Shown piece by piece: positions 17,477-25,323 of a stretch of DNA of 25,955 nt (position 1 is the stretch's first letter; each line of letters begins with the position of its first letter). This DNA comes from a virus. Position numbers and translations under genes: made by a program. The notes below the pieces were generated by a model. That model was not told the origin of the DNA and did no database searches. It saw only the letters and a program-made list of their open reading frames with translations. The stretch is from positions 1-25,955 of the IMG/VR virus record IMGVR_UViG_3300032722_000105; one strand, written 5' to 3'.

Positions 17477-18010
17477 CTAATTGCTAAAACCGAGATTATC
17501 AGTTAATAGCATTTTAATGCCATCGGTAAGTTTTTCGGTATCTTTTTGCTCTGTTTTATTCTCTAAAACTCTATTAGACATTAATCCACATTCAGGGATG
17601 ATATAAAGCCTATCTTCAATAGCAAGAATATCCTTACAATCATCTAAATTGTCATAAATATCAATCCAGATCAATTCTTCATCAAATACTCTGCCAACTC
17701 TTTTAATTCCTGCTGGAGCATCAAATTCCATTGGAGCTGTCAAAATCTTAATTTCATTGCCAATATTGACAGCTATTGTTCCTTTTTTAAGTATGACCTT
17801 ATAAGGAGTTTTGTGCTCTGCACCAACAATAACTGACCAAGGGGGAGCAATCATTGTTCTGATATATTTTCCAGGCTCAAAATCATGCAAAAACTTTACA
17901 TCAGCTTGAGGCATTTGCAATAAAGCTTCTTGAAGTTTTTCTACTTTTTCTTTTAATGGAACTACAGGTAAAAACCCTTTTCCATAAGTAACTGTAATTG
18001 AATGGTTCAT
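17477..18010 (-). CDS. Cupin-like structural/assembly phage protein
   Basis: A 177-residue protein whose middle is beta-rich: FEPGKYIRTMIAPPWSVIVG, HKTPYKVILKKGTIAVNIG, APMEFDAPAGIKRVGRVFDE, IWIDIYDN. This strand order with H-T-x(4)-I-L-x-K-G resembles single-domain cupins found among phage tail and head genes. It lacks the full His-rich metal site, so an enzymatic role is unlikely. The start overlaps the upstream small gene by 4 bases. It occupies the place of P22 gp14, but no homology claim is made. Confidence 0.55.
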   Translation of the reverse strand: MNHSITVTYGKGFLPVVPLKEKVEKLQEALLQMPQADVKFLHDFEPGKYIRTMIAPPWSVIVGAEHKTPYKVILKKGTIAVNIGNEIKILTAPMEFDAPAGIKRVGRVFDEELIWIDIYDNLDDCKDILAIEDRLYIIPECGLMSNRVLENKTEQKDTEKLTDGIKMLLTDNLGFSN

Positions 18011-18246
18011 ATATTGTAGTAAGGAACCTTAAAAGGCTTGCCATTAACAGTAATATTAATAAATCCTACTGGATTTGTAGGCAAAGTAGATGAGCCTTTT
18101 GTAGCTGTAGGAGATGCTGAAAAATTAAGCAAATTAAGAAAATACTGTTGCCATGCCCTTGTTGGCAGTTTATTGCCATCATCCAATAAAGGGGTTACAG
18201 GATAGGGATTATTTTGAGTTGTTCCCCAAATTTGATTAACAGCCAT
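18007..18246 (-). CDS. Small structural protein
   Basis: 79 residues with LPTRAWQQYFLNLLNF in the middle and LPTNPVGFINITVNGKPFKV near the end, closing with PYYNI. Proteins ending in NPVGFI...NG...K.PYY are frequent in phage tail modules just after the gp10-like gene. The function is unknown, probably a virion or assembly component. It overlaps both neighbours by 1-4 bases. Confidence 0.62.
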   Translation of the reverse strand: MAVNQIWGTTQNNPYPVTPLLDDGNKLPTRAWQQYFLNLLNFSASPTATKGSSTLPTNPVGFINITVNGKPFKVPYYNI

Positions 18247-20396
18247 TAGTTTTCTCCTTCAGAAGCTTTAAGATTAGCTGAAACAATAACCGCTTTAATA
18301 GGGTCAGTAACAACTACCTCAAATATTCTATCTCTAGACCAACCCAATCTGCGCCAAATAATCCTGTTTTGGTATTTACCAATACTACCAATAGTTTGCC
18401 AATGTTCATTTGACCATGTAGAGCCACCATCATTTGACCATCTAAGCATAGCTTGAGGATTTGCGCCTACTGTTTCTCCATTTAAAGGAATAGTTGTTCC
18501 TGTTAAACCTACACCTGGCTGGAATTGAATCTGAAATTCATCAAAATACTGTCTTTGAAGGTCAGTAACCAAATGAGGAGCTCTGCGAACCCTGCGAATG
18601 GTATCGCCATTATCTGTATAGTTTTGCGAATCTAATTGATAGATTTGACCATTTTCCCAATCGCCTACCAAAAAGATGTTTTGAAATAAGCATCCACAAT
18701 TTGACCTATGGCGATGATAGGTATTACTGTTATCTACCCAAAGCCATTTATGCCAAAGCTGAGTTGTAAAATCATAAGCCCAAGTTAAATCAAGAGTAGG
18801 GAATGAAATTACATAGACTTCATGGCCTTCTAGCTGATAAGTATAGGCAATAGCATCACCTACATATTGGTTTACAAGAGTATTTTCTACAGCATGAGTG
18901 GATATTCTTGTTGGGAAATAGCCATTCATCATGACAATTTCAGACTGTCCCCTAATATTTTGAGCTAAATAAGCAAAAGAATTACCTACCCTTGCTACTG
19001 AAAAAGGAGCAGAAATACCATGTTGACTAGAACTTCCAGGAATTCTTTGGAAAGCAAATGGAAAAGTTCCTACATCTGACCAAACTTCAGAAGTAGTTTC
19101 TCCAAGCAAATAAACTTGTCCATGGTCAGATATTAAAGATACAAGGTTATCAGGTGCTGTAAATTTAGAAGCAAAAGATAAACTATAAGTAATCGGACTC
19201 AAAATATTAGATGCAGCCCATTTTTGAGTATTTGGGTCATTGTAAATAAAGTAATTATCAATAACATCAACAATAGTACCGCCAGTAAATGCGCCATCAG
19301 TAGAAGGAATGACACTAAATCTAAGTGCATACATTGATTCTGAGGCAACTGTTTGAGTTTTGTTAATTACATAATTACCAGTTCCACCTGTACCGCTACC
19401 AAAAGTTAAGGTAAGAGTTAAGCCAGTACCAGCTCCACTTGTAGAAGTAGAAGCTGGATTTATAGGATTAGAGGTATATTGACCAGCATTAGTAACTGTC
19501 AATGTAGCAACTGCTCCAGCAACCCCAATACTAGCTACTGTGTAAGTTGCAGGAGTAGTTCCATAAACACCGCCAACAACTGTAATTGTGTCATTTACAG
19601 CATATCCAGTTCCTGCTGTTGCTATGGCTGTGGATAATACTGTTCCGCTTCCCAAAGCAGTAATAATGGTTTGATTAGTTACTCCTGTTCCTACAATAGT
19701 CATTCCAGGAGATAAAGTATCTGTCCCTGAAATTGTTGTAACAGTTAGAGTAGTTCCTGAAATTGATGATGTAATCTCTGCTGCTACATCACTAGTAAAC
19801 ATCTGAGTTGAAGCTACAGATTGAGTTAAATTTACTGTATAAGTACCAATTCCACCAGTTGTACCACCTGTTTGAGCTGTAATAATGGTATTTTGCAATA
19901 CTCCAGCACCAAATAGCTGACTAGCAATAGTAATTCCAGTACCTAATACATTAATTCCTGTAACAGTTAAAGTAGTTCCTGAAATTGAACCTTGGAAAAT
20001 GCAATCATCTGCATCTTCTTTAATAAACCAGCTATATCTATTTGCACCATCAGTAATATAGACATTTATGCCATTATCGGCAATTCCAACATAACCTGAA
20101 TTTGTATTAAGCTGACCAATGATTCTAGGTGTAAATGTTGCATCAACACAATAAACAAATTGACCGCATACAGCTACAAAATCCTGACCGCCTGACAAAG
20201 TTTTCATTCCTCTTACTTCAGCTTGTGGAGTAAGGGCTAAAACAGAAGTAAGCCCTGGAGTTGGATATAAAGCAACAACACCTCTAGAGCCTTGTGGCTT
20301 AGTAGGGTCCACTTCAGGGAACCAGTTTATGCACTCCTGAGCATCTTGATAAATAGAAGGGGCTTCATAAGAAGCTCCAACAAAGCCAAAATCCAT
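18246..20396 (-). CDS. gp10-like tail stabilization protein with nested domain insertions
   Basis: A 716-residue protein. Residues 1-133 (GASYEAPSIYQDAQECINWF, LYPTPGLT, RGMKTLSGGQDFVAVCGQ) and 358-716 (STDGAFTGGTIVDVIDNYFI, GQVYLLGETTSEVW, GHEVYVISFPT, WAYDFTTQLWHKW, LRWSNDGGSTWSNE) match the P22 gp10-type packaged-DNA stabilization protein, a beta-propeller-like tail hub that seals the head. Between them lie two copies of a beta-rich domain with the SISGTTLTVT motif (about 135-202 and 208-357). The second copy is itself split by a different domain (about 253-335). With the insert removed the length would be about 490, close to gp10. The inserts probably face outward as decoration. Confidence 0.8.
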   Translation of the reverse strand: MDFGFVGASYEAPSIYQDAQECINWFPEVDPTKPQGSRGVVALYPTPGLTSVLALTPQAEVRGMKTLSGGQDFVAVCGQFVYCVDATFTPRIIGQLNTNSGYVGIADNGINVYITDGANRYSWFIKEDADDCIFQGSISGTTLTVTGINVLGTGITIASQLFGAGVLQNTIITAQTGGTTGGIGTYTVNLTQSVASTQMFTSDVAAEITSSISGTTLTVTTISGTDTLSPGMTIVGTGVTNQTIITALGSGTVLSTAIATAGTGYAVNDTITVVGGVYGTTPATYTVASIGVAGAVATLTVTNAGQYTSNPINPASTSTSGAGTGLTLTLTFGSGTGGTGNYVINKTQTVASESMYALRFSVIPSTDGAFTGGTIVDVIDNYFIYNDPNTQKWAASNILSPITYSLSFASKFTAPDNLVSLISDHGQVYLLGETTSEVWSDVGTFPFAFQRIPGSSSQHGISAPFSVARVGNSFAYLAQNIRGQSEIVMMNGYFPTRISTHAVENTLVNQYVGDAIAYTYQLEGHEVYVISFPTLDLTWAYDFTTQLWHKWLWVDNSNTYHRHRSNCGCLFQNIFLVGDWENGQIYQLDSQNYTDNGDTIRRVRRAPHLVTDLQRQYFDEFQIQFQPGVGLTGTTIPLNGETVGANPQAMLRWSNDGGSTWSNEHWQTIGSIGKYQNRIIWRRLGWSRDRIFEVVVTDPIKAVIVSANLKASEGEN
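19326..19775 (-). repeat. Domain A copy 2, interrupted by domain B
   Basis: Residues 208-357 of the gp10-like protein. The first half of domain A (SISGTTLTVTTISG ... IITALGSGT) resumes after about 83 residues as GGTGNYVINKTQTVAS. The insert (about 19398-19631), with AGTGYAVNDTITVVGG, ATLTVTNAGQYTSNP and a STSTSGAGTGLTLTL end, is a second repeat type that I associate with phage fibre and hub proteins. GSGT stands at both junctions. Confidence 0.65.
19791..19994 (-). repeat. Domain A copy 1
   Basis: Residues 135-202 of the gp10-like protein: GSISGTTLTVTG, IITAQTGGT and IGTYTVNLTQSVAST. A 29-base stretch at its start (19960-19988) repeats at 19738-19766 in copy 2 with one mismatch, so the two copies arose by recent duplication or exchange. 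Confidence 0.65.
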
Positions 20397-21025
20397 TATT
20401 TAATATCCCCATATCGTTCGCCATCACGAATTCTACGAATAGTAGATTCGCTTACACCATATTCTCTAGCAAGTTGGGCAATGTTTCTGTAGCCTATTCT
20501 TGGTCTAATTTCTAATACTTGTCCAGCAGTTAAAACTCGTTTTTTAAGTTTAGGTTTACCAAGATTAGATGCACTAATTTTAGTCTTAGATTCTTCAGAA
20601 AGGGTTGTTCCAGCTTTATTTTTATTGCCAATACGAACATAAGACATTTGTGCTCTAGATTCTTCGGAATGTTTTTTTCCTTTAAAAGTCAAACCCCAAG
20701 AAGAAGCTCCATAAGAATTTCCTTTTAATTTAGTTTTATGTTCATTCGTATGTTTATAGCCAGTTGCACCTTCGCCACCATCAGTAAGGTTACAAAGCTC
20801 AATTCCCATATCTTTCATACAAGAAATTAACAATACTTCATGGTCTAATGCTTCAGCTTCGGTATCCCAATGGGCAAGTATTTGAACTTCATAACCATAT
20901 TTGGCAACTATGCGTTTCCAATAATCATTGCGATTTTTAGAATAAGCTCTTCTACCTATTCCTTTACCAATGTAAAAAATAGTTCCGTTTGGTTTTGCAT
21001 GAGCATAAGTGTAGTGTGTTTTCAT
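20396..21025 (-). CDS. GIY-YIG homing endonuclease with NUMOD3-like repeats and HTH
   Basis: A 209-residue protein. The GIY-YIG nuclease domain has YTYAH (5-9), FYIGKG (17-22), GRRAY with the catalytic-type Arg, and EALDHEVLLI with the likely catalytic Glu63. Three NUMOD3-like DNA-binding segments follow (GYKHTNEHKTKLKG, GKKHSEESRAQMS, GTTLSEESKTKISASNLGKP). The C-terminal helix-turn-helix is NIAQLAREYGVSESTIRRIR (181-200). This is the classic layout of a free-standing phage homing endonuclease. It lies between the gp4-like and gp10-like genes, and its stop overlaps the gp10-like ATG (TAATG). It has its own extended -10 promoter. Confidence 0.92.
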   Translation of the reverse strand: MKTHYTYAHAKPNGTIFYIGKGIGRRAYSKNRNDYWKRIVAKYGYEVQILAHWDTEAEALDHEVLLISCMKDMGIELCNLTDGGEGATGYKHTNEHKTKLKGNSYGASSWGLTFKGKKHSEESRAQMSYVRIGNKNKAGTTLSEESKTKISASNLGKPKLKKRVLTAGQVLEIRPRIGYRNIAQLAREYGVSESTIRRIRDGERYGDIK

Positions 21026-21059: not shown

Positions 21060-22049
21060 TTACCTAAAGAACCCTCCGCTCAAAATCCAGCCAGCATCAC
21101 GACTACGACCCACCAACATAGAATCAGGATAGCCAGCAGCAGCAATAGGTTTCATATTGTTTCTTTTAATTGTTGATTTAGATTGTGCAGCATAAGCATT
21201 AATCATGCTAATTTGAGTTGCAGAAGCTTTGCCATACATAGGCATCAATCTTTCTGCAAGATTCCATCTAAGGGCCATTGAATAGCCTTGTGGAAGCACA
21301 ATATTGTCATACAAAGTTTCATAATTACTAAAAATAGTAGATGAAAACATATGCATCTCGCCTTGAGCTGGATTAGGCCATACAAAAATATTTCCAGATT
21401 CAGCATTTGGATTGTAATAAAGAGCTTTAGGCCAAGGACCATTAAGAGTCTTTAATCCAATTTGGTTATAGTTTTCAAGAGCAATTACAGCAACTTGATA
21501 ATCTAAACCACCATTTTGAACAGCTTGACCATTAGACTGAGTATTTACCCTTACATAAGCTTGGTCAATAAATAAAGGCTTTTGATAATAAGCAGTAATT
21601 AATTCAGAGCTTACAGGTGCTGTATAGGTAATATTTAATTCATAAGTGCCAACTTCATTAACTTGACCACCAGCACCAGTTAGAAACTGAACAATTTTAG
21701 TCCCTGGGATAATTCCAGTTCCTTTTAGGGTTTGTCCTTGTGCTACTGCGCCTGTAGTTAATGAAGTTACAGTAAGAATATTTCCTGCAATTGAGCCTGT
21801 AAATGTAGCTCCAACAAAGTTTGCAGTTGAAGGAGTAGGCCCAATGGTATATTGAACTTGACCTGAAATTAATGGAAATATGATTTCTGTGGTGTTGTAA
21901 ACCATCATATCCTCATTAGACCATTGGTCTACGAGATCATTTAGCATATCAAAAGCATCTTGAGCAGCCTCTGGAGTAGGAGTTTCACCAGCTTCTAATG
22001 CGCCAATGTCTTTTAAGGCTCTGCTAATAATATCTATAGGCTGTGTCAT
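21060..22049 (-). CDS. gp4-like head-tail adaptor/tail accessory protein with insert
   Basis: A 329-residue protein. The N-terminal helix set (DIISRALKDIGALEAGETPT, DAFDMLNDLVDQWSNEDMMV) and YTIGP are those of P22 gp4-type tail accessory factors that attach below the portal. Usually the chain passes from YTIGP directly to a R/KP..I..AYVR stretch; here KPLFIDQAYVRV appears only after about 75 extra residues. Those residues match domain A of the gp10-like protein. The rest (ENYNQIGLKTLNGPWPKALY, LRWNLAERLMPMYG, IKRNNMKPI) fits the family. It carries its own start 2 bases from the upstream gene. Confidence 0.82.
   Translation of the reverse strand: MTQPIDIISRALKDIGALEAGETPTPEAAQDAFDMLNDLVDQWSNEDMMVYNTTEIIFPLISGQVQYTIGPTPSTANFVGATFTGSIAGNILTVTSLTTGAVAQGQTLKGTGIIPGTKIVQFLTGAGGQVNEVGTYELNITYTAPVSSELITAYYQKPLFIDQAYVRVNTQSNGQAVQNGGLDYQVAVIALENYNQIGLKTLNGPWPKALYYNPNAESGNIFVWPNPAQGEMHMFSSTIFSNYETLYDNIVLPQGYSMALRWNLAERLMPMYGKASATQISMINAYAAQSKSTIKRNNMKPIAAAGYPDSMLVGRSRDAGWILSGGFFR
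21591..21812 (-). repeat. Domain A copy 3, in the gp4-like protein
   Basis: Residues about 80-153: GSIAGNILTVTSLTTG, GQTLKGTGIIPGTKIVQFLT, VGTYELNITYTAPVSS. It has the same strand order and spacing as copies 1 and 2 in the gp10-like protein but is more diverged, so it is an older or independent acquisition. Confidence 0.6.
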
Positions 22050-22425: not shown

Positions 22426-25323
22426 TTAAGCGATATTGGCTGCTTTTAAGCGAGCACGGAGAGATTGAATTTCTGCTACTAATACAGCCATTTTGGCAGA
22501 GGTTGAAAAATCACCTTGTTGATAAACTGGTTTTCCTTCTGCATCTACAGCATTAGGTTGTCCTGTAATAGCATTTGGGAATTGTTTTTGATATTCGTCT
22601 GTAATAAAACCCATATCAGAAGAACCATCTGCGTTCCAAGTAAATATTCTTGGTAACAAAGCGTCAATAATTGTTCCGCTATCTGTTAGTGGCGCAATAT
22701 TAGATTTTAATCTGCGGTCAGATGTAACATTGTAAAGAACGCCAGTAGTTCCAGCTTGAGTAATAGTGCCAATTGTTGTACCGTTATAACCAAAAGCTGA
22801 GTAATAATACCCAGAAGCAGTACCTGAAATATGGTTTACAACACTAATACCAGCAGTATAAACAAAACTGTTTGAATTATTAACAGATGCACTTGTAGTA
22901 CCAACTAAAAAATTACCACTACCATCAAAAACACCTCTAGGATTACCAGAACCATCAGATAAGACAATGTATCCTGCTGCTGTACGAATATCTAACCCAC
23001 CTTGATTACCTGAGTAAGAACCCAAAATAGTGTTGGCATATCCTGTGGTCATTGCATAACCAGATTGATATCCTACATAAGTATTTAATCCTACACCTGA
23101 AGTGCCTGTTTCAGAATACCCAGCTTGATATCCTAAAAATGTGTTACTTCCTGTATTTGAGCCGCTATACCCAGCTTGATAACCTACTGCTGTGTTGTTA
23201 GAGGCTGTGGTGTTTGAGAATAAAGCACTTGTACCAACAGAAGTATTGCTACCACCAGTAGTATTTGTGTATAAGGAATTTACACCTAAAGATGCGTTTC
23301 CAGCACCTGTCGTATTGCCTAAAAGAGACTGAATTCCAACCGCAGTATTATTATTTCCAGTTGTGTTTGCCGCTAAAGCACTAGCACCAACAGCAGTATT
23401 ACCACTTTGCGCACCACCACCTAAACCAACAGTAAGACCGTGAATAGATGCGTCAGAAGTTGTTTGGAATTGTCCACCGCTAGTAATTGTTGCTGCATCG
23501 GTAGCACCACCGTTTACAACAAAATGAACAGCATTTGAAGAGCCAGTACCGATTACTAAATCAGCACTCATTGATTGCAAATAAACTGCATTTGCCAAAC
23601 CAAAAGAGCCAGTTCCACTAAATCCTGAACTGTTCATACCAAAGTCACCATAATAGGTGCTTGCAGTTCCTAAGTTATTAGAAACTACATAATCAGTAGA
23701 AGCTGTTGTTCCTGAATTAGTGTTTTGTAAAACAATTTGATTGTAGCTATTTGTGCTTGATGTAAATGAAGCAAAAATACTTGTGTCTGTATAACCAAGT
23801 GTTCCATAACTAAAAGCACCAGTATTTGCAGAAGTAGCAATGGTTTTATTGGCTACAAAAGCACTAGCAGTTTCAGTTCCAGAGGTGTTGATGCTTGTTG
23901 CGCTTGCCGCACCCAATGTTGGAGTAACAAATACTGGGCTTGTAGCTAAAGCAATACCGCCTGAACCAGTAACTGTTTGACCAAGAGCAGTTTGCACTCC
24001 TGTTCCAAAAGCAGTAATACCAGTACCGCCATTGGCAATATTTAAAGTTCCAGCTAATGTAACTGCACCAGTTGTAGCGGTTGATGGCGTTAAACCAGTT
24101 GTTCCACCGCTAAAAGAAGTTACGGTTGCGGATGCAGAAACCCATGTAGGCACACCAGCAACAACAGTAAGAATTTGCCCTGAAGTTCCAATAGCAAGCC
24201 TGGAAGAAGTATTTGCACCACTTCCATAAATCATATCGCCAACAGTTGTAATTGGGCTTAATGCATTAAATGCCGAAGAAGCCGTAATTTGCCCTGTACC
24301 GCCATTTCCAATAGCAAGAGTACCAGTTACACCAGTTGTTAAGGGAAGGCCTGTAGCATTGGTTAAAACACCGCTTGCAGGGGTTCCTAGTGCTGGAGTA
24401 ACAAAAGTAGGGCTTGTAGCAAATACAAGAGCACCTGTTCCAGTTTCATCTGTAACTGTAGCTGCTAAATTTGCAGAAGTTGGAGTTTGCAAGAAAGCCA
24501 GCATATTTGTACCAAGACCAGTTACATTTCCAATGGCAGGAGTAATAGTGGTATTGGTTACAGAAGTAATTTGACCTTGTGCATTTACTGCAAATACTGG
24601 GGTTGCAGTTGCAGAACCATAAGTGGATGCGGCAACTCCTGTATTGGTAATGCTAAATTGATAACCAGTTAAAGTTAAACCAGTTCCAGCAGAATATAGT
24701 GTTGAAACACTAAAATTACTCCAATTCATTGCCGTTGTACCAAGCGTACCGCCTGGCTGGGCTGTACAATACCATGCTGAACCAGCTTGACCGCCATACT
24801 CAACGAACACTAATGCGCTAACATATTGCGCCCAAGTAGTGCAGCCTGTTGCATAAGTCCAAGCACCGCTAGAAACCGTATAAATACCGTTTTGAGCTGC
24901 GTTCGTTTGGTTTTTAACAAGTACTGTATTACCAGCAACAAGGCTTACTGTATCAACAGTCTGAAGCCCTGAAAGCGTAATGTTTGCTGTTGTTGCCGCT
25001 GTTACAGGATTTTTCCAACTAATTCCAGCAGCATAGGACTGAAGTGTTAAAAAGTTAACAATATCAGTAGCACTAGAGGCATTTGTGCTGATGGTTCCAG
25101 TAACTGTTGCAATATTGGTAAAAACACCTGTAGAAGGTGAGGTGCTACCGATAGGCGAGCTGTCTAATGTGCTATTGGTAATTGTTAAACCTGATTGAAT
25201 AGGATTAGCGCTTGCATAAAATGCTTTCCCTTGTCCAATAAAAGTCTGAAAATTACCATAAACATCAAAATAAGCCTGAACAGGCAGTAGATTTTGGTCT
25301 ACTGTTGAATTGGGAGCACCCAT
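22426..25323 (-). CDS. Large tail fibre with S74 intramolecular chaperone
   Basis: A 965-residue protein. The N-terminal QNLLPVQAYFDVYGNFQTF (9-27) is a probable virion anchor, shared in part with the smaller protein next door. The body is beta-rich and Thr/Gly/Ala-rich, with VFVTPALGTP-type repeats. Residues 641-772 form eight or so 16-18-residue repeats (NTAVGxxALxxNTTG) of the YadA-head type. The C-terminal 100 residues are an S74 peptidase/ICA domain, SDRRLKSNI with Ser868 and Lys873, FTWNADGSSDMGFI and a terminal coiled coil, which self-cleaves after trimerization. Likely the receptor-binding fibre. Confidence 0.88.
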   Translation of the reverse strand: MGAPNSTVDQNLLPVQAYFDVYGNFQTFIGQGKAFYASANPIQSGLTITNSTLDSSPIGSTSPSTGVFTNIATVTGTISTNASSATDIVNFLTLQSYAAGISWKNPVTAATTANITLSGLQTVDTVSLVAGNTVLVKNQTNAAQNGIYTVSSGAWTYATGCTTWAQYVSALVFVEYGGQAGSAWYCTAQPGGTLGTTAMNWSNFSVSTLYSAGTGLTLTGYQFSITNTGVAASTYGSATATPVFAVNAQGQITSVTNTTITPAIGNVTGLGTNMLAFLQTPTSANLAATVTDETGTGALVFATSPTFVTPALGTPASGVLTNATGLPLTTGVTGTLAIGNGGTGQITASSAFNALSPITTVGDMIYGSGANTSSRLAIGTSGQILTVVAGVPTWVSASATVTSFSGGTTGLTPSTATTGAVTLAGTLNIANGGTGITAFGTGVQTALGQTVTGSGGIALATSPVFVTPTLGAASATSINTSGTETASAFVANKTIATSANTGAFSYGTLGYTDTSIFASFTSSTNSYNQIVLQNTNSGTTASTDYVVSNNLGTASTYYGDFGMNSSGFSGTGSFGLANAVYLQSMSADLVIGTGSSNAVHFVVNGGATDAATITSGGQFQTTSDASIHGLTVGLGGGAQSGNTAVGASALAANTTGNNNTAVGIQSLLGNTTGAGNASLGVNSLYTNTTGGSNTSVGTSALFSNTTASNNTAVGYQAGYSGSNTGSNTFLGYQAGYSETGTSGVGLNTYVGYQSGYAMTTGYANTILGSYSGNQGGLDIRTAAGYIVLSDGSGNPRGVFDGSGNFLVGTTSASVNNSNSFVYTAGISVVNHISGTASGYYYSAFGYNGTTIGTITQAGTTGVLYNVTSDRRLKSNIAPLTDSGTIIDALLPRIFTWNADGSSDMGFITDEYQKQFPNAITGQPNAVDAEGKPVYQQGDFSTSAKMAVLVAEIQSLRARLKAANIA
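23008..23403 (-). repeat. YadA-head-like repeat tract in the tail fibre
   Basis: Codes for residues 641-772 of the fibre. About eight units of NTAVG.xAL..NTTG, later NTFLGYQAGYS type, each 16-18 residues. Such repeats make left-handed trimeric beta-rolls in bacterial adhesins. The units are similar at the DNA level and could expand or contract. Confidence 0.7.

Follow-up and report, generated by a model that had tools for sequence, protein, structure and literature searches.

The sequence considered here is a fragment of 25,955 bases from a freshwater virus of bacteria, referred to below as the window. Our subject is a minus-strand gene for a protein of 716 residues (Table 1), both ends of which fall in the P22 gp10 head-closure/hub family. 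The protein matches the sequence profile phrog_578 (E 9e-96), and its fold is that of a beta-propeller hub: in the VIA comparison it aligns with P22 gp10 (8eap) at Z 35.7 (rmsd 3.2, 416 residues aligned), with further matches to 8u10 (Z 35.1) and 7sg7 (Z 31.9). In its C-terminal part, PDB sequences 9vyg_M (E 6e-17) and 7eeq_1 (E 6e-15) are matched as well. The SU10 nozzle protein is another fold match, and T7 gp12 a weaker one. A gp4-type adaptor gene adjoins the hub gene, and a homing endonuclease gene sits exactly between the two, overlapping the hub start by one base. The hub thus resembles P22 gp10 and Sf6 gp8 (Hc3, phrog_578; VIA Z 35.7 and 31.9) in fold, family and gp4-like neighbour; it differs from P22, Sf6 and all insert-free relatives in a 223-residue block, described below, which they lack.

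Table 1. Features of the hub region, in window coordinates (residue numbers are those of the protein named)
Feature	Positions	Strand	Basis
gp10/Hc3-type tail hub gene (head-closure, “packaged DNA stabilisation”), 716 aa	18246..20396	-	phrog_578, 8eap
Hub N-terminal part, residues 1-132	20001..20396	-	alignment to insert-free homologues L003-L006
Domain A copy 1, residues 133-200	19797..20000	-	A profile 45.4 bits; AF2 strands
Domain A copy 2, N-terminal segment, residues 208-249	19650..19775	-	A profile, spliced copy 56.3 bits
Domain B within A copy 2, residues 250-332	19401..19649	-	missing from A-A homologues; T4 gp18 domain I candidate relative
Domain A copy 2, C-terminal segment, residues 333-357	19326..19400	-	A profile positions 43-62, 22.4 bits alone
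Hub C-terminal part, residues 358-716	18246..19325	-	phrog_578; PDB 9vyg_M, 7eeq_1
79-aa ORF directly downstream of hub	18007..18246	-	form found throughout insert-bearing clade
NUMOD3/GIY-YIG-like homing endonuclease gene between two insert-bearing tail genes	20396..21025	-	NUMOD3 E 1e-7; phrog_314 E 1e-20
gp4-like head-tail adaptor (Ad3) gene, 329 aa	21060..22049	-	phrog_12985 E 2e-40; phrog_637 Ad3, residues 1-46
Domain A inside gp4-like protein, residues 81-149	21603..21809	-	A profile match

Anatomy of the insert

The block consists of two copies of a domain A, the second of which is interrupted by a different domain B; we write this as A-A[B]. The original prediction had described such an arrangement in a gp10-type hub at 19326-19994, and our boundaries agree with that interval within 6 bases. 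The interruption of the second copy was also part of that description, and we find it upheld by an A profile built from B-less homologues only. Copy 1 scores 45.4 bits against this profile; copy 2 scores 26.9 bits unspliced and 56.3 bits after removal of B in silico, and B by itself does not exceed 5.3 bits. Because the removal of B raises the score of copy 2 to this extent, its splitting is more than a chance likeness. The splitting is confirmed by natural homologues in which B is absent and the second A runs without interruption. Comparison with insert-free homologues was possible too: residues 133-357 are missing from MW202674, MW202520, Rhodoferax phage P26218 and Xanthomonas phage PBR31.

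Structure prediction gives discrete folded domains and not one continuous domain. An AlphaFold2 (AF2) model of the hub, built with 93 homologues, has a mean pLDDT of 81.8 over the whole protein; the insert block is mostly above 90 within the hub and reaches 90.9 when modelled alone, A and B both being confidently predicted. Each A is modelled with long strands in and out and short strands in between (in copy 1, strands 132-150, 159-163, 171-178 and 184-203, with pLDDT mostly above 90); B is modelled as all beta with a short helical turn. A conserved pattern of glycine and hydrophobic residues is present in A and in B.

Searches of A, B and a further domain C (see the next section) against the Pfam and NCBIfam models yielded no adequate name or model, and no Ig-type family matched any of the three at E up to 1. 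No solved relatives of A or C were found by sequence, and the best Foldseek hit of the insert alone in the PDB has E 0.34. The relatives of A offered by VIA (EF-Tu-type barrels and the Bridgette virion protein 8eci) stay at Z 7.0 or less, too weak to name the fold. Domain A alone has no match in the annotated phage collection, where low-complexity filtering perhaps masks it, and a literature search for its motif found nothing.

For B, we presume a distant relationship to domain I of T4 gp18. VIA aligns B with residues 99-188 of gp18 (3foa) at Z 6.6 (rmsd 2.9, 72 residues aligned, 25% identity), a value below the VIA guide of Z 8 and in the range that unrelated folds can reach. Gp18_dom_I (PF22639) is the only Pfam family that matches B, at 13.3 and 11.9 bits for two B sequences against a cutoff of 27 bits, which leaves B outside the curated family. 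Compared by hhalign with a profile of 11 gp18 domains (Straboviridae and related phages), B reaches 87.8% (E 3e-6, 42 columns), with controls at 2% or less. Taken together, fold and profile suggest that B is probably a distant relative of domain I, one that fails formal membership. In T4, gp18 has three insertions nested in one another, and domain I, the innermost, projects outward and binds the retracted tail fibres (PMC3004832). B is likewise the innermost domain of the nest in the window, and its likeness to domain I in fold and profile is suggestive; unlike domain I, B belongs to the hub of a short tail and has A as its carrier, a domain missing from T4 gp18.

Architectures, age and exchange of the modules

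Among the 223 hub homologues listed (the scans give at most the best 80 loci each, are rich in related lake metagenomes and include several loci on one contig), 88 have no insert, 19 have A-A, 112 have A-A[B], and a few are longer. Empty hubs are common in the set used for the tree as well (86 of 206), which means that the hub family as a whole can do without the insert. In the A-A[B[C]] hubs (L060, L394, L395, L397, L304/L396, L399 and L400), C splits B, which makes three nested levels. The architecture A[D]-A[B] also occurs, L341 has an additional A-like domain within A copy 1, and in L291 the same hairpin holds modules of quite another kind. A distant gp10-type hub, L402 (2527-4791), has neither A nor B; it contains C, another glycine-rich repeat and a module like that of L291 (VFYNGNLFTVT-like). 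Inserted accessory domains in phage tails are known already, and so is the nest in T4 gp18. Here every step of the ladder, from none through A-A and A-A[B] to A-A[B[C]], is still found among living relatives, with the nesting order and the empty sites directly readable.

The arrangement had been called “recent”, and here the data contradict the original prediction. On a tree of the hub alone, A-A was gained once, long ago: its clade includes more than 100 genomes (support 0.93, and 0.86 in a larger set), presence and absence switch twice (once for A-A and separately for L291), and 7 architecture changes are counted versus about 80 with shuffled labels. A-A hubs nest within the A-A[B] clade at approximately three places; therefore B was probably lost, or replaced by an intact second A, several times, the deep nodes that bear on the direction of gain and loss being weakly supported. 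The identity between the first and the second A is 46% within a genome and the same 46% across genomes, and the copies cluster according to position rather than genome.

The observations from which recency had been deduced are nevertheless correct for the window. The SISGTTLTVT-coding stretches of copies 1 and 2 are identical in 29 of 30 bases, and GSGT occurs at both junctions. Across homologues, within-gene matches of the same stretch average 20.9/30; a match of 29/30 is reached in 4% of the between-gene pairs that code for the same ten residues. In only 5 of 112 homologues do both junctions have the same tetrapeptide, and the 12-nt junction DNA agrees at 7.33 positions within a locus versus 7.26 between loci. 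We therefore rejected GSGT as a target-site-like duplication, there being no extra DNA similarity within loci. A recent duplication of A was rejected too, since the copies group by position and their junctions carry no duplication signal. Local conversion of the short SISGTTLTVT-coding stretch in the window is possible.

The original prediction also proposed a modular “system” that spreads decoration domains through tail genes. This is supported in part. Inheritance is mostly vertical: in close pairs (n=79) the hubs are 96% and the inserts 95% identical, and in random pairs the divergence of the insert tracks that of the hub (r 0.77). Between gp4, gp10 and other genes, the DNA of A is about 70% identical at most, and we saw no recent transfer of it from one gene to another. 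Sequence identities do indicate, however, that C moved laterally between distant hubs: in L402 and L060 it is 75% identical in protein and about 72% in DNA, versus about 25% for the hubs. L304/L396 and L045 have hub flanks 97-98% identical, whereas their inserts are 87% identical, that of L304/L396 containing C in addition; the differences are concentrated in A2[B[C]], a pattern as expected of a swap of this block. The gp4-like gene of L021 has flanks 95% identical to those of the window, yet it contains an extra A, which points to a fairly recent gain or loss. The extra A agrees at 75-79% with the second A of other gp4-like genes, the flanks of which agree at 57%. Tandem second copies of A in gp4-like genes are located at 3583-4803 of L021 and 4482-5750 of L016. 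Lateral gain and exchange of modules thus stand, and dedicated mobility machinery is not part of the supported picture. The homing endonuclease gene precedes 16 of 129 insert-bearing hubs versus 1 of 82 empty ones (p 0.003, ancestry ignored), and it is possible that the endonuclease drives co-conversion of the flanking tail genes.

It is tempting to see here a recent and actively mobile module, carried by a dedicated spreading process that left the GSGT repeats at its junctions. The 29 identical bases of 30, the lateral movement of C, of the second gp4-like A and of the A2[B[C]] block, and the excess of the endonuclease beside insert-bearing hubs (counted, again, with ancestry ignored) would all agree with such a process. 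A single old gain shared by more than 100 genomes, copies that group by position, junctions lacking a duplication signal, the limited cross-gene similarity of A and the close tracking of hub divergence by the insert are difficult to reconcile with it; we consider this explanation highly improbable in general and largely refuted for the window. An insert that is so often absent, and modules that vary and nest wherever a hairpin allows, might instead be neutral filler, harmless beta modules collected by permissive loops without any benefit. This is also improbable in our opinion: dN/dS is 0.171 for the insert versus 0.110 for the C-terminal half of the hub, i.e., purifying selection on the insert is nearly as strong as on the hub; the insert is kept across a deep clade; and the glycine/hydrophobic pattern is conserved in both A and B. 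The insert is under purifying selection and is, therefore, very likely functional.

Domain A in other proteins

As a check, the original prediction named a look for the same modules in unrelated genes, and A was indeed found in many virion and surface proteins; the modules thus look like additions to the outer surface of the particle that can be used again and again. In the window, the second carrier is the gp4-like adaptor; A is present in 217 of the 219 listed gp4-like homologues and absent in two. Elsewhere, A lies within proteins matching tail sheath phrog_205, phrog_1876, phrog_376 and tail fibres, in a head-closure (neck)/baseplate fusion (L090), in a DUF1996 protein (L115), and in a DUF3383 protein, a neck/tail terminator and a lambda D-like decoration protein. 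By fold, it is also recognised in an HK97 capsid protein and in tail tip proteins. In Baseplate_J proteins, A is located at or past the end of the match and is known there as a neighbour of the match. PHROGs 21413 and 38233 resemble our case in containing A as an unnamed part of larger proteins; they differ in that they are described only as unknown function or tail fibre, and A is not delimited there.

Neighbouring neck-type and sheath-type genes, both with A, occur in L491 (2791-5326), L122 (3-2690) and L148 (1646-4353); these pairs belong to contractile-tail phages or prophages and echo the gp4/gp10 pair of the window. Among bacterial surface proteins, A is present in secreted FG-GAP proteins. 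In two Bacteroidota FG-GAP/ASPIC proteins (L511, 2398-5547; L503, 2353-5529) it follows an early FG-GAP stretch and precedes the ASPIC domain, i.e., A also enters propeller-type proteins outside phages.

We tentatively propose that A is an undescribed and very promiscuous “insertion domain”, shared by tailed phages and the surface proteins of bacteria, which would enter loops and offer its own glycine-rich loop as an entry site for other modules; this is plausible, and we would not go further. If true, nests of up to A[B[C]] would build and swap at fixed sites, and the hub hairpin would be a display platform for A, C and other modules. The carrier A is without an adequate Pfam or NCBIfam model, although it recurs in neck, sheath, hub, capsid-decoration, fibre and bacterial surface proteins. 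Once A is defined, annotators could divide hundreds of unnamed phage proteins into their parts, and the role of the decoration would become testable.

Placement and possible role of the insert

In the model, the insert joins strands 119-124 and 360-363; from the predicted strand order, this hairpin would be the outer junction of propeller blades 2 and 3. In SU10, nozzle domains (four Ig-like) are inserted between blades 2 and 3 and reorganise on genome release (PMC9509320), and the nozzle tip of T7 comes from a loop in blade 3 (PMC6702177). For other added domains, a review of tail sheaths (PMC9230969) comes to conclusions like the reading favoured below, of an exposed arm for docking or host contact. 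It also cites promiscuous Ig-like domains in unrelated phage structural proteins, with a proposed weak binding to surface carbohydrates (Fraser 2006, as cited in PMC9230969). As presented in that citation, the latter domains resemble our case in being small beta modules common to unrelated virion proteins; they are of other families, and A, B and C sit in loops and in each other, up to three deep.

The parallel with SU10 and T7 raises the question of whether A-A[B] is a nozzle-like extension, which would lengthen the tail tube and rearrange during DNA delivery. By fold, the hub is matched to the SU10 nozzle protein and, less well, to T7 gp12; in both cases the domains are placed in the propeller of a similar hub, and by strand order the insert fits the same blade 2/3 junction as the SU10 nozzle domains. 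The latter are, however, Ig-like and arranged in a row, while A and B are nested and match no Ig family. Moreover, hubs of the P22 type function without an insert, A is also present in proteins with no nozzle role, and the number of small domains varies from two to four among close relatives, with C gained or lost amid near-identical hubs, which is unexpected for the wall of a tube. We consider a nozzle unlikely, although it is the main rival of the reading that follows.

We rather favour, and hold to be fairly probable on the basis of the model and the analogies above, nested and independently folding beta modules in a surface hairpin of the hub that would serve as exposed appendages for docking or host contact. 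The hairpin would carry A and then A split by B, each as an independently folding unit. If the hub is hexameric as in P22, there would be six A-A[B] arms per tail, projecting outward, and B, like domain I of T4 gp18, would form the outermost element of the arm. The exposure and direction of the arms are predictions from the geometry of strand order and fold matches. Fibres or spikes could dock on such arms, or the arms could touch the surface of the host weakly. For the gain and exchange of modules, we presume that ordinary homologous recombination among related phages would be responsible; the hub would tolerate an added module because the two ends of the module lie next to each other at the hairpin loop that receives it.

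The product of the 79-aa ORF downstream of the hub is a candidate partner of the arms. In the insert-bearing clade, the ORF after the hub is usually 78-80 aa long, with a conserved PVGFINITVNGKPYKVPYYN end. In phages with empty hubs, the ORF after the hub shares an N-terminal PQ.PFLD..RP-type motif and has another end or a fused spike. First counts suggested that insert-bearing hubs are without the downstream spike gene of empty hubs; the match then proved to be mostly a short shared anchor. We dropped the idea because this anchor sits in the small ORF, which the insert clade has in a diverged form. The window also encodes, at 22426-25323 on the minus strand, a structural protein of 965 aa with a terminal S74 endosialidase-type chaperone domain, which matches head-decoration and fibre PHROGs.
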